A DNA stretch of 64,000 nt from contig JAFHKN010000002.1 in assembly GCA_016937575.1 (NCBI GenBank), positions 1,798,001 to 1,862,000 on the forward strand. Reading direction: 5' to 3'. The translations under genes were made by a program, and so were the position numbers. Within the stretch, counting starts at the first letter, position 1. Every line of letters starts with the position of its first letter. The DNA is from Roseomonas aeriglobus. Its GTDB lineage: Bacteria > Pseudomonadota > Alphaproteobacteria > Sphingomonadales > Sphingomonadaceae. Under the pieces are notes generated by a model, which was not told the DNA's origin, made no database searches, and saw only the letters and a list, made by a program, of their open reading frames with translations. This document shows, in pieces, positions 2,842 to 56,160 of this stretch.

Positions 2842-2962
2842 ATCCTCCCCTGCAAGGGGAGGTGGCAGGCCGAAGGCCTGACGGAGGGGTGTTACGCTTT
2901 CCGGATAGCGGGACACCCCTCCACCATCCTTCGGATGGTCCCCCTCCCCTTGCAGGGGAGGA
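2842..2962. repeat. Inverted pair of REP-like elements (gene-less copy of the DUF559-flanking repeat)
   Basis: Two about 49 bp units in opposite orientation (2842-2891 and 2914-2962), 22 bp apart. Each has a CCTCCCC-TGCA-type hairpin closed by GGGGAGG, then a second hairpin with a GAA loop (stem CAGGCC/GGCCTG in one, ACCATCC/GGATGGT in the other), then GGAGGGGTG. The stems differ but pair perfectly, so structure is conserved over sequence. The same element brackets the DUF559 gene at 55195-55664. Lies between valS and the MATE gene. Confidence 0.8.
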
Positions 2963-51426: not shown

Positions 51427-53471
51427 CACCACACCTTCACCCGCTGTTCGGGCGCGAGGTAGAGCTTGTCGCCCGGCTTGATCCCGAACGCGTCGTACCA
51501 GGCGTCGATATTGCGCACCGTCAGCGCGCGATATTGGCCGGGCGCATGGCCGTCGGTCGCGATCCGTGCGCGCAGCGTCGCGTCACGCATCTTGGTCGCC
51601 CAGGTCTGGGCGAACGCCAGGAAGAAGCGCTGGTCGCCGGTCATCCCGTCGATCACCGGCGCCGGCTTGCCGCCGAGCGAGGCGTGATACGCGTCGTACG
51701 CCGCCTGCAGCCCCGCCACGTCGGCGATGTTCTCGCCCAGCGTCAGCTTGCCGTTGACCGCCAGGTCCGGGAACGGGCGATACGTGTCATACTGGTCGGC
51801 CAGCGCCCTGCCCGCCGCGTTGAACCGCTGGAGGTCGGCCGGCGTCCACCAATTCCGGAGCGTGCCCGACGCGTCGAACGCCGCGCCATTATTGTCGAAG
51901 CTGTGGCTGATCTCATGCCCGATCACCGCGCCGATCGCGCCGTAATTATAGGCCGGGTCGGCCGCGGGATCGAAGAACGGCGGCTGCAGGATCGCGGCCG
52001 GGAAGTTCAGCGCATTCTGCACCGGCAGGTTGACCGCATTGATCGTCTGCGGCGTCATCCACCATTCGTTCCGGTCGAGCGGCTTGCCGATCTTGGCGAG
52101 CTGGTGGCGATACTCCGCCCGCTCGCCATTCACCGCATTGGCATAGGCGTCGGTCGGGCTGACGGTGTATCCGGCATAGCTGCGCCACCTCTCCGGGTAT
52201 CCCACCCCGACGACGATGCCGCGGACCTTCTTCAGCGCCTCCGCCTTGGTCGCCGGTGCCATCCAGTCGAGCCGCTGCACGCGGTTGGCGAATGCGGTCT
52301 TGATATTGTCGACCATCGCCTGAACCTCCGACTTGGCGCTGGCCGGGAAATATTGCGCAGCATAGAGCCGCCCGACGTCGTCGCCCAGTTCGCGGTTCAG
52401 CGCCGCTAGCGCGCGCTTGCTCCGCGACTGCTGCTGCGGGGTGCCCGACAGCGTCGTGCCGTAGAAGGCGAAATGCGCGGCATCGATCGCGCTCGGCAGG
52501 ACGTCCGCATGGCTGTTGATCTGGTGGAACGCCAGCCAGTCCTTCCACGCCTCCAGCGGTTCGGACGCGACCAGCGCCGACAATCCGGTGATCGCGCTTG
52601 CATGGTACGCGCCGAACATGTTCTGCCGCGCGAGATCGGCGCCTGCCAGGAACGCCGGCCAGTCGATCCCGGGCGCCTTCGCCTGCAGGTCGGCCCGCGA
52701 CCAGACAGCCGCCGACTTGGTGAAATCCTCGCTCTCCTCACGCGTCACATGGGCACGCGCGATCTTCATCTCCAGGTCGAAGATCCGCTGGGCCTTCGCA
52801 TCCGCGTCCGCGATGCCCGGGGTCTTCAGCAGCTTGGCGATATAGGCGCGGTACGCCGTACGAATTTCCGCCATCTTCGGATCCGCCGACAGATAATATT
52901 CGCGCTCCGGCAGCCCCAACCCGCCTTGCAGGATGTAGGGGATCACCTTGCCCGGCGTTGCGAGCCCCTGCGTCACGAAGATGCCGAACAGATTCTCGGT
53001 CTGGAAATTGGTCGCGTTCAGCGGGTCGACATCGGCGCGGATCGTCGTGCCGATCGCGCGTGACAGAGCGGCCTTGTCACGGATTGCCGCAAAGCGCGCC
53101 AGGTCGGCGGCGATCGGCTTCATTCCCGCCGCATCGATCGCGCGGGTGTCGGTGTAGGCCTTGTAATAATTCGCGATTCGCGCCTCGGGCGACCCCGGCT
53201 TCGGCGTACCGCGGACGATCTGGTCGACCATGCCGGTCGTGCGCTGCTCGGTCGTCGCGAAGGCTTCGTAGAACGATCCCGTGCTCGACCGGTCGGCCGG
53301 GATCTGCGTCGCCTTCTGCCAGCCGCCATTGGCGTAGAGGTAGAAATCGTCACCCGGCTTCACGCTCGCATCCATCGACGATCGCTCGACTCCCGCCTGG
53401 GGGGCAGTCTGCGGTCCGGCAGCGGCGGTGGTGGCGAGCAGGGCGAGGACGATCAGCGAACGACGCAACAT
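51426..53471 (-). CDS. M13 (neprilysin/PepO) family zinc endopeptidase, exported
   Basis: 681 aa. Signal peptide ([15 protein letters not shown]); the mature chain starts near [19 protein letters not shown], typical of the family. Zinc site HEISH (His519, Glu520, His523) with third ligand Glu580 in [10 protein letters not shown], and the conserved [23 protein letters not shown] before it. It cleaves peptides in the periplasm. It is divergent from liuB across 100 bp and coupled to the SGNH hydrolase. Confidence 0.94.
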
Positions 53472-53571
53472 TCTGGGACGACTCCGTAGGATGTGGATGC
53501 ACGCTACGCCCGTCGCCTTTCGTCCGCCAGACCCGCTTCCCATCGTTGCAACGGAACGCTACCCACGCGGC

Positions 53572-55173
53572 ATGAGTGCACCGGTTCTCGATACAAAAGC
53601 CTCGCCCGACAGCGAAATCTTCCGCACAAATGCCGCGCACAACCGCGCACTGGTCGACCGCCTGCGCGCCGATGTGGCTGCCGCCGCTCGCGGTGGCAAC
53701 GACGCCAGCCGTGACCGCCACACCGCGCGCGGCAAGCTGCTGCCCCGCGACCGTGTCGAACGCCTGCTCGACCCCGGATCGCCGTTCCTCGAGATCGGCC
53801 AGCTCGCCGCGAACGGCCTGTACGGCGACGAGGTCCCCGGTGCTGGCATCATCGCCGGCATCGGCCGCGTGTCGGGTCGGCAGGTGATGATCGCCTGCAA
53901 CGACGCGACCGTGAAGGGCGGCACTTACTACCCGCTGACGGTCAAGAAGCATCTGCGCGCGCAGGAAATCGCACTCGAGAACCATTTGCCCTGCGTCTAT
54001 CTGGTCGACTCGGGCGGCGCCAACCTGCCCCACCAGGCCGATGTCTTCCCCGACCGCGAGCATTTCGGCCGCATCTTCTTCAACCAGGCGCAGATGAGCG
54101 CGAAGGGCATTCCCCAGATCGCCTGCGTCATGGGCAGCTGCACCGCCGGCGGCGCCTATGTCCCCGCCATGTCCGACGAAACGGTGATCGTCCGCAACCA
54201 GGGCACCATCTTCCTCGCCGGCCCGCCGCTGGTGAAGGCGGCAACCGGCGAAGTCATCTCCGCCGAGGAACTGGGCGGCGCGGAAACGCATGGCCGCAAG
54301 TCGGGCGTCGTCGACCACGTCGCCGAAAACGACGACCATGCGCTGACGATCGTCCGCGACATCGTCTCGACCCTCGCCCCGCAGACCGGCGCCGGCGTCA
54401 ACCTGCGCGACCCGCGCGCGCCGAAATATGATCCGGCGGAACTCTACGGCCTGATCCCGCAGGACGTCCGCGCGCCCTATGACGTCCACGACGTCATCGC
54501 GCGGATCGTCGACGCATCCGAGTTCCACGAATTCAAGGCGCTCTACGGCAGCAGCCTCGTCTGCGGCTTCGCCCACATCTGGGGCATGCCGGTCGCGATC
54601 CTCGCCAACAACGGCGTGCTGTTTTCGGAAAGCGCGCAGAAGGGCGCGCACTTCATCGAACTCGCCTGCCAGCGCAAAATCCCGCTGCTGTTCCTCCAGA
54701 ATATCTCGGGCTTCATGGTCGGCGGCAAATATGAGGCGGAAGGTATCGCCAAGCACGGCGCCAAGCTGGTCACCGCCGTCGCGACTGCCAACGTGCCCAA
54801 GGTGACCGTCCTGATCGGCGGCAGCTTCGGCGCGGGCAACTACGGCATGTGTGGCCGCGCCTATAGCCCACGGTTCCTGTTCACCTGGCCGAACAGCCGG
54901 ATCTCCGTGATGGGCGGCGAACAGGCAGCGTCCGTGCTGGCCACGGTCCACCGCGACGCGGACAGCTGGGATGCGGACCAGGCGGAAGCCTTCAAGGCCC
55001 CGATCCGCCAGAAATACGAAGATGAGGGCAACCCCTGGTACGCGTCGGCGCGCCTGTGGGACGACGGCATCATCGACCCGGCACAAACCCGCGACGTCCT
55101 GGGCCTGGCATTTGCGGCAACGCTGAACGCCCCCATCCCCGACCGCCCCAGCTTCGGTATCTTCCGGATGTGA
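53572..55173 (+). CDS. liuB: 3-methylcrotonyl-CoA carboxylase beta subunit (carboxyltransferase)
   Basis: 533 aa. Acyl-CoA carboxyltransferase fold with [30 protein letters not shown] lead, [53 protein letters not shown] and [16 protein letters not shown], all diagnostic of the methylcrotonyl-CoA enzyme rather than propionyl. It works with the biotinylated alpha subunit encoded at 56279-58123. Start ATG 53572 ([10 protein letters not shown]). Confidence 0.94.
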
Positions 55174-55194
55174 CCGAAGGGGAGGACCCACAAG

Positions 55195-55249
55195 ATCCTC
55201 CCCAGAATGGGGAGGGGGACCGCGCGAAGCGCGGTGGAGGGGCTGGTCG
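55195..55249 (+). repeat. REP-like element, upstream copy flanking the DUF559 gene
   Basis: It contains ATCCTCCCC-AGAAT-GGGGAGG, then GGGACC, then the hairpin CGCG-CGAAG-CGCG, then GGTGGAGGGGCTGGTCG. The copy at 55598-55664 is the same element in the opposite orientation, and both match the pair at 2842-2962. It lies directly after liuB. Confidence 0.85.
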
Positions 55250-55304
55250 CAGGCTAACCGGGCCAAGACAAACCGTCCTCCGCAGCCGTCAACTCCGCCG
55301 CGAG

Positions 55305-55667
55305 ATGAGCCTCCCCGAAGTCCTCCTCTGGCGCACTCTAAAGACCCGCCCGAACGGCCTTAAATTCCGCAAACAGCACCCGGCCGGCGTCTACATCCTC
55401 GACTTCTACTGCCCGGCCGCCAAGCTCGCGATTGAAGTCGATGGGGCGCACCACGGGCTCAAGCACCAAGCCACAAAGGACGCCGCCCGCGACCACTGGC
55501 TCGCCAGCTGGAACGTTCGCACCCTCCGCATTCCCGCCACAGCGATCCTTGACGACGTAGCCGCGGTGGTCGCACACATCGTGGCACACGCCTCGCCCGA
55601 CCAGCCCCTCCACCGCCCGGCTGCGCCGGGCGGTCCCCCTCCCCGAGACGAGCTCGGGGAGGATTGA
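55305..55667 (+). CDS. DUF559 endonuclease-like protein
   Basis: 120 aa Vsr-like PD-(D/E)xK fold. Asp33 in YILDFYCPAAKLAIEVDG with Glu44 and Asp46 form the predicted metal site, and HH49/50 follow. ATG 55305 is the first start in frame, though the related sequence (RSRQLRREM) continues upstream, so the N-terminus may be trimmed. Residues after about 97 (PDQPLHRPAAPGG...) are encoded by the downstream repeat element. The gene is bracketed by inverted REP-like elements. No restriction partner is nearby. Confidence 0.8.
   Translation: MSLPEVLLWRTLKTRPNGLKFRKQHPAGVYILDFYCPAAKLAIEVDGAHHGLKHQATKDAARDHWLASWNVRTLRIPATAILDDVAAVVAHIVAHASPDQPLHRPAAPGGPPPRDELGED
55598..55664 (-). repeat. REP-like element, downstream inverted copy flanking the DUF559 gene
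   Basis: Read on the minus strand it is AATCCTCCCC-hairpin-GGGGAGGGGGACC, a longer hairpin (CGCCCGGC-GCA-GCCGGGCG), then GGTGGAGGGGCTGGTCG, identical in its conserved parts to the upstream copy at 55195-55249. It encodes the last part of the DUF559 protein. Confidence 0.85.
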
Positions 55668-55680
55668 GAAAGGCCCGCCT

Positions 55681-56160
55681 ATGCCCCTCCTCCTCCTTGC
55701 CCTCGCCCTTCAGGTCACGCCGGTCCAGCCCCTTCCCAAGGCCGTCCCGCTGCCGCCCCCCGACGCGGAAACCGCCGCGGTCCTCGCCCCCATCGACCGC
55801 CTCTTCGCCGCGGTCACGGCCAAGGACCCCGCGGCCATCCTCGCCCAGGTCCGCACCGACGGCCGCAACAGCGCGATCGTCGCGATGCCCGACGGGTCGA
55901 GCGAAGTCCGCACCCGCAGCTGGGCCGACTTCGCCGGCGGGCTGAGCGATGGCCCCAGCCTGCTGCAGGAACGCCTCGTCAACCCGGTCGTCGACATCGA
56001 CGGCAACCTGGCGATGGTGTGGTCCAGCTACATCTTCCGCGCCGACGGCCGCGTCACCCACTGCGGCACCGACCAGTTCACGATGGTGCGCGATGCTGCG
56101 GGCTGGAAGGTGCAGCATCTGACCTACACCCAACGCCAGACCGACTGCCCGGCCGGCTGA
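55681..56160 (+). CDS. NTF2/DUF4440-like exported protein
   Basis: 159 aa. A short hydrophobic N-terminus (MPLLLLALALQVTPV) may be a signal. The body (about 30-155; LFAAVTAKDPAAILAQVRTDG, LAMVWSSYIFRADGRVTHCGTDQFTMVRDAAGWKVQHLTYTQR) has the SnoaL/NTF2-like cone pattern with a C-terminal DGRVTHCG turn. The role is unknown. It lies between the DUF559 gene and liuD. Confidence 0.7.
   Translation: MPLLLLALALQVTPVQPLPKAVPLPPPDAETAAVLAPIDRLFAAVTAKDPAAILAQVRTDGRNSAIVAMPDGSSEVRTRSWADFAGGLSDGPSLLQERLVNPVVDIDGNLAMVWSSYIFRADGRVTHCGTDQFTMVRDAAGWKVQHLTYTQRQTDCPAG

Follow-up and report, generated by a model that had tools for sequence, protein, structure and literature searches.

A DUF559 nuclease gene inside an inverted doublet of structured repeats, with parallels to REPIN/RAYT systems

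The window, a 64,000-nucleotide stretch of the Roseomonas aeriglobus genome (contig JAFHKN010000002.1, positions 1,798,001 to 1,862,000), carries a DUF559 gene for a Vsr-like nuclease that lies between two inverted copies of one hairpin-forming repeat. Structured repeats of several types bracket DUF559 genes elsewhere, the type of repeat is co-inherited with the nuclease clade, and the number of repeats is linked to the presence of the matching nuclease. The window element is probably a REPIN-like palindromic doublet, in which the element's own nuclease gene replaces the usual spacer of ~30 bp. By analogy with repetitive extragenic palindromic (REP) sequences, their doublets (REPINs) and their transposases (RAYTs), we favour, at a probability of roughly 0.6, a REPIN/RAYT-like system with a Vsr-like nuclease in place of the HUH transposase, the nuclease being the presumed mobiliser. 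This reading joins two puzzles, abundant DUF559 nucleases of unsettled function and very common repeats without a known mobiliser, and suggests that the partner long missing from a common bacterial repeat class is the DUF559 family.

DUF559 genes and the repeats that bracket them

Each half of the window element is built from an outer hairpin (CCTCCCC..GGGGAGG), a GGGACC motif, an inner hairpin whose loop reads GAA or GCA, and an 11-mer tail, GGTGGAGGGGC. The arm GCGGTGGAGGGGCTGGTCG (55231–55249) is identical at 19/19 positions to the complement of 55598–55616, and 55209–55226 matches 55627–55644 inversely at 94% of 18 positions. The frame is a strong match to DUF559 (PF04480; E = 1e-23, 83.7 bits against a curated cut-off of 20.6), and 15 columns are invariant across 20 aligned domains, the window row included. 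Its structure model, compared over 1000 Foldseek-ranked chains, has the predicted fold of the catalytic domain of the homing nuclease I-Bth0305I (3r3p) and of Vsr (1cw0/1vsr). The stop codon (55665–55667) falls directly beyond the right repeat, and the repeat therefore encodes the final ~22 residues, a segment modelled with low confidence. The original prediction, of a DUF559 gene bracketed by inverted copies of one element, with these hairpins and GGGACC in both halves and a protein C-terminus encoded by the downstream repeat, thus describes the locus correctly; to it we add that the repeat is one family among several and that the left copy may be translated as well.

Our relatives set comprised 41 genomes (the window's own and 40 relatives), 32 of which gave 102 DUF559 matches; 89 loci were taken, leaving out 13 weak or partial matches, and 87 had enough flank. 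Calling a locus bracketed when a local inverted repeat spanning the domain scored at least 34, we found structured inverted repeats around 75 of the 87 genes, compared with 1 of 339 control windows shifted by 800–1000 bp within the same loci. These shifted windows replaced a mismatched-flank control, since the flanks of different loci share repeats. ParE toxin genes, taken as a control from 25 same-genus genomes, were bracketed at 0 of 30 loci; DUF559 genes therefore carry the repeats far more often than the controls, as had been proposed.

An even sample across the class gave a DUF559 match in 54 of 144 genomes and 29 new loci from the best matches, 14 of them bracketed, as against none of 116 shifted windows. 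A further set of named loci, spread over many phyla, consisted of the 80 out of 581 that were most similar to an alignment made up largely of sphingomonads. Of these, 75 had sufficient length, and removal of one score artefact from a run of Ns left 74, of which 53 were bracketed against 1 of 569 shifted windows. These include loci from Chloroflexi, Nitrospirae, Gastranaerophilales, FCPU426, Rickettsiales, Xanthomonas and Caulobacter. The DUF559 loci of Neisseria gonorrhoeae and Pseudomonas aeruginosa had no inverted bracket by score. Genomes carry 0–10 divergent DUF559 copies, the 4.28 Mb window genome seven.

At the N. gonorrhoeae locus, a triplex-like repeat (see below) stands on both sides of the gene, in direct order by eye. 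On a Sphingomonas parapaucimobilis plasmid (L244), a bracketed DUF559 gene sits within the suf operon between sufB and sufC, 2 nt before sufC. The gene on Sinorhizobium meliloti pSymB (L238:2349-3038) lies between 114 bp arms, pieces of which (~45–50 bp) recur in many of 152 matching plasmid records, others matching via an insertion sequence element; we presume that these arms might be RIME elements.

Repeat type, number and fold

Sorting the arms by simple patterns gave five classes. When the classes are mapped onto a tree built from the 75 bracketed domains, class changes 10 times (minimum possible 4), against a mean of 41.2 for shuffled labels, with 0 of 200 shuffles as low as 10; the labels of L091 and L101, taken from nearby context and not from the arm, are counted on this tree and excluded from the copy-number class lists. 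Orthologous sites inflate this count, and repeating it with a single locus for each site (29 groups) gave 7 changes against a shuffled mean of 17.0, again with 0 of 200 as low. Class B alone was weakly clustered in this reduced set (30 of 500 shuffles as low). Classes coexist within one genome (G010 carries A, C and D), so genome composition does not explain the match between class and tree.

The 14 genomes that have a class-A gene carry 12–107 class-A repeats each, and the 11 that lack one carry 0–20 (Mann–Whitney p = 1.3e-4, in tests across 25 genomes that ignore kinship among them). Class C1 repeats likewise follow a C1 gene (p = 0.009), and the crossed comparisons give 0.38 and 0.07. The genome with 20 class-A repeats and no class-A gene (G024) carries the sister class D.

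The window's repeat family is dispersed through its genome. The 11-mer tail occurs in 17 + 13 copies against 3 + 3 for a backwards control, and a longer half-element pattern in 31 + 36 = 67 copies against 0, which excludes chance. On contig C2, 66 exact halves form 22 head-to-head pairs; the spacer is 28–32 bp in 21 of them, which is the REPIN/RAYT trait of dispersed inverted doublets with conserved spacing, and the remaining pair, 362 bp apart, holds the window gene. The only other C2 halves less than 600 bp apart are two additional neighbour relations, both within a single four-copy cluster (2030573–2030970). Gene-less pairs in G001, G005, G009, G018 and G016 have spacers of 17–65 bp, and all five long pairs (347–371 bp; the window's and four in these genomes) enclose a DUF559 match, in a tally covering the six genomes with listed sites, G016 in part.

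Each half of the window element folds in single-stranded DNA as two consecutive hairpins (z = -4.16 and -4.25, 0 of 200 shuffles folding as well), and a gene-less doublet folds into a long inner pairing with an outer hairpin on either side (z = -6.67). Covariation of the inner-hairpin stems, also part of the original prediction, is confirmed across 51 distinct inserts: 267 of 271 stem cells pair, against a mean of 77% and a maximum of 83% when 3' halves are redealt among inserts of the same length, and two to five kinds of standard pair are seen at every one of the first six stem positions. Among 47 odd-length inserts, 46 close with a C-G pair and 38 take the form C(GNA)G. The exceptional stability of such loops in DNA suggests that the repeat works as single-stranded DNA.

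Related repeats and nucleases

REPIN/RAYT systems, as passages of PMC3116915 and PMC3733652 describe them, share with the window family inverted hairpin-forming repeats beside an enzyme gene, gene-less inverted doublets of conserved spacing, enzyme-matched repeat types and single-copy, mostly vertical enzyme genes. They differ in the enzyme (an HUH Y1 transposase, against a Vsr-like EDxHD nuclease), in the repeat (a GTAG-tagged single hairpin, against halves of two hairpins and a G-rich tail) and in the position of the gene, which in the window sits inside its doublet. The REP/RAYT parallel originally drawn thus extends to inverted cognate repeats around the gene, doublets of near-fixed spacing, co-inheritance of type and tracking of copy number. 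Vsr and the EDxHD homing endonucleases are set apart from the window nuclease by its free-standing gene within a repeat doublet. A RAYT as the mover is unlikely in most genomes, Y1_Tnp (RAYT/IS200 type) being found in 3 of 25, the window's genome among them.

One repeat type flanking DUF559 genes is a published orphan, the 'intrastrand triplex' repeat (triplex/PIT/TM_ECO), and a table in PMC4666352 lists such a repeat beside ycjD. Passages of that paper describe 23 of these repeats in Escherichia coli MG1655, with five inverted pairs, always A + B, and report no mobility activity around them and no linked mobility gene, whereas here the class is linked to DUF559. Shared features are the arrangement CCCTCTCCC-hairpin-GGGAGAGGG-TTA-GGGTGAGGG, as on many DUF559 flanks, and inverted A + B pairs at intergenic positions in many genomes; many DUF559 arms read as a polypurine hairpin with a mirror third strand. 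The pattern GGGAGAGGG-N2-5-GGTGAGGG is dispersed, in up to 60 copies, in 17 of 20 genomes behind named loci, chosen since most of their arms looked triplex-like, and a control pattern gave 0 in 19 genomes and 1 in one. The window's own class, with GGGACC and a second hairpin, is related to the triplex repeats by architecture only, the G-rich tail alone being shared.

K-12 ycjD (1351407–1351760), annotated as DUF559, lies 168 bp from triplex repeat no. 9 (1351204–1351239). A second similar hairpin overlaps its 3' end and an unrelated AT-rich hairpin stands on its 5' side; ycjD is at best half a bracket. The stretch from repeat to gene was found, at least 80% covered, in 3365 of 5426 E. coli genomes, and the E. 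coli of our control panel gave no PF04480 match, although K-12 ycjD carries that annotation.

CGTC-REPs are palindromic doublets in head-to-head arrangement, mostly from Alphaproteobacteria, which according to passages of PMC3733652 'apparently lack a dedicated transposase'. They differ in sequence from the window repeats, and in our genomes similar repeats flank GIY-YIG genes, not DUF559. Thirty GIY-YIG loci (L245–L274, from the 25 same-genus genomes) were meant as a control; at 17 of them the gene turned out to be bracketed by a different set of inverted repeats (CGTCATCCCCGCGAAGGCGGGGATCC, CGTCATGCTGAAC..GTTCAGCATCC and CCGTTCGCCCTGAGCTTGTCGAAGGGC types), some of which look like the CGTC-REPs. 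Four of the 30 are frames of 644–734 aa, presumably UvrC. Open-licence PMC full text yielded no paper joining GIY-YIG with extragenic palindromic repeats and none linking DUF559 with repeats such as these, the available passages of PMC12907096 and PMC9403480 included.

On balance, we lean towards seeing the orphan triplex/PIT repeats as DUF559 offspring and the CGTC-REPs as GIY-YIG offspring, with nuclease–REPIN alliances having arisen at least three times (HUH, Vsr-like and GIY-YIG) and ycjD as a decaying example. A cognate nuclease would make both puzzles testable and suggests that a REPIN-like life evolved on unrelated enzymes; DUF559/Vsr-like genes such as Caulobacter vsrA would be recast as possible domesticated members.

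Inheritance of the gene and competing explanations

The closest DUF559 gene pairs occupy mostly orthologous sites, their flanks mostly better conserved than the gene. Pairs without flank homology reach at best 77% nucleotide identity among the 89 loci (L090/L103 77%, L095/L099 76%, L063/L070 76%). We read the gene as inherited mostly vertically, with occasional moves.

The window element is inserted at the 3' end of the mccB-like gene. The 30 best matches to this site, the window's included, form a set enriched for filled sites since the query holds the element; DUF559 is present in 14 (nine forward, five reverse) and absent from 16. Eight gene-less sites have the next start codon 4 nt past the mccB stop, L125 and L128 keep a half-element, L146 has a lone outer hairpin, and five are without a half. 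Across genomes the site is thus seen empty, filled forward, filled in reverse and as a remnant. Forward copies fall either side of a 97% branch, so the site has probably been filled more than once. The same gap holds a GIY-YIG gene in L125 (G021), L128 (G001) and L145 (G006), and two kinds of nuclease element therefore share it. Clean strain-level empty sites, for which the original prediction had proposed a test in sister strains, were not found at three other loci: all 7 records that cover at least 80% of the query have the Azospirillum site filled, a single record contains the whole S. meliloti stretch, and two E. coli strains without ycjD have efflux genes at that position.

Under the REPIN/RAYT-like reading, the DUF559 nuclease would recognise its cognate repeat by the folded halves, in single-stranded or extruded form, and would nick or cut there. 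Copies made by host replication or repair would then arrive at new intergenic sites; they would be gene-less doublets for the most part, and only rarely include the nuclease gene, which is otherwise inherited mostly vertically, like RAYT genes.

Several observations weigh against this reading. The closest gene pairs are mostly orthologous, so movement of the gene is rare; the printed junctions show no clear target-site duplication, and no exact empty/filled junction could be read. In the three samples 12/87, 15/29 and 21/74 DUF559 genes fall below the bracketing threshold, although several have decayed arms of the same kind (by eye, uncounted), and plasmid or chromid loci were bracketed in 5 of 13, five of the 13 being one Azospirillum site. 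Class C1 by itself is unclustered once each site is represented by a single locus (129 of 500 shuffles as low), kinship is left out of the copy-number tests, and class-A repeats occur without a class-A gene in G023 (15), G022 (5) and G011 (4). The triplex repeat stands on one side of ycjD only, and at two other E. coli doublets the alleles fit slippage between direct repeats, not excision. The literature passages found describe no cleavage, binding or transposition by a DUF559–repeat pair.

The main rival, a serious alternative that we nonetheless consider unlikely, is homing: the nuclease would cut the spacer of a gene-less doublet, and repair of the double-strand break would copy its gene in. 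The repeats would serve as target and homology arms, and would spread by some other route. The window gene does replace a doublet spacer, yet a complete doublet was found by pattern in 0 of the 16 gene-less mccB sites, 13 of which have neither a half nor a remnant hairpin, and homing alone does not account for the way in which both the number and the type of repeats track the nuclease. Homing and repeat copying may both operate at once. A host repair role, in which DUF559 would serve a solitary cytosine methylase as its Vsr-type mismatch endonuclease and the repeats would be incidental or protective, is improbable as a general account. The modelled fold is a close match to Vsr, and passages of PMC12907096 report that Caulobacter VsrA (DUF559) causes an SOS response upon loss of the solitary methylase ScmA, but such a role predicts neither cognate repeats, nor 0–10 divergent copies per genome, nor copy-number tracking; it may be true of some domesticated copies. 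We give very little credence to the idea that short accessory genes and repeats gather in tolerant intergenic gaps, the repeats being placed by another activity: the mccB 3' gap does hold DUF559, GIY-YIG or repeat remnants depending on the genome, but none of the 30 ParE genes is bracketed, the bracketing is symmetric, repeat type tracks the protein tree even when each site contributes a single locus, and 22 of 25 genomes have no Y1 transposase match.

At the window locus, the DUF559 gene has two in-frame candidate starts, GTG 55170, overlapping the upstream gene's stop codon, and ATG 55305, which lies inside the conserved domain and would remove its conserved first helix. With the former, the nuclease may be translated by coupling and both flanking repeats read as protein. 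A search of 55000–55900 against Rfam gave zero matches above the gathering threshold, and PADLOC gave partial matches only (DpdF, mREase_II). Coordinates are collected in Table 1.

Table 1 Features of the nuclease locus and of a gene-less doublet, in window positions
Feature	Position	Strand	Remarks
Upstream flank, acyl-CoA carboxylase (mccB-like) gene	53428..55173	+	name given by eye
Left half-element	55195..55249	+	outer hairpin, GGG, inner hairpin, tail GGAGGGGCTGGTCG
Left outer hairpin	55197-55215		CCTCCCCA-GAA-TGGGGAGG
Left inner hairpin	55219-55235		ACCGCGC-GAA-GCGCGGT
DUF559 (Vsr-like, EDxHD) nuclease frame as analysed	55269..55667	+	conserved core 55275-55586
Right half-element, inverted	55598..55664	-	GCA-loop inner hairpin; encodes protein C-terminus too
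Downstream flank, small open reading frame	55681..56160	+	resembles by eye the gene directly after mccB in empty-site relatives
Gene-less inverted doublet of the window's repeat family	2843..2962		divergent left half, typical right half (G000:C2:1800916-1800949)
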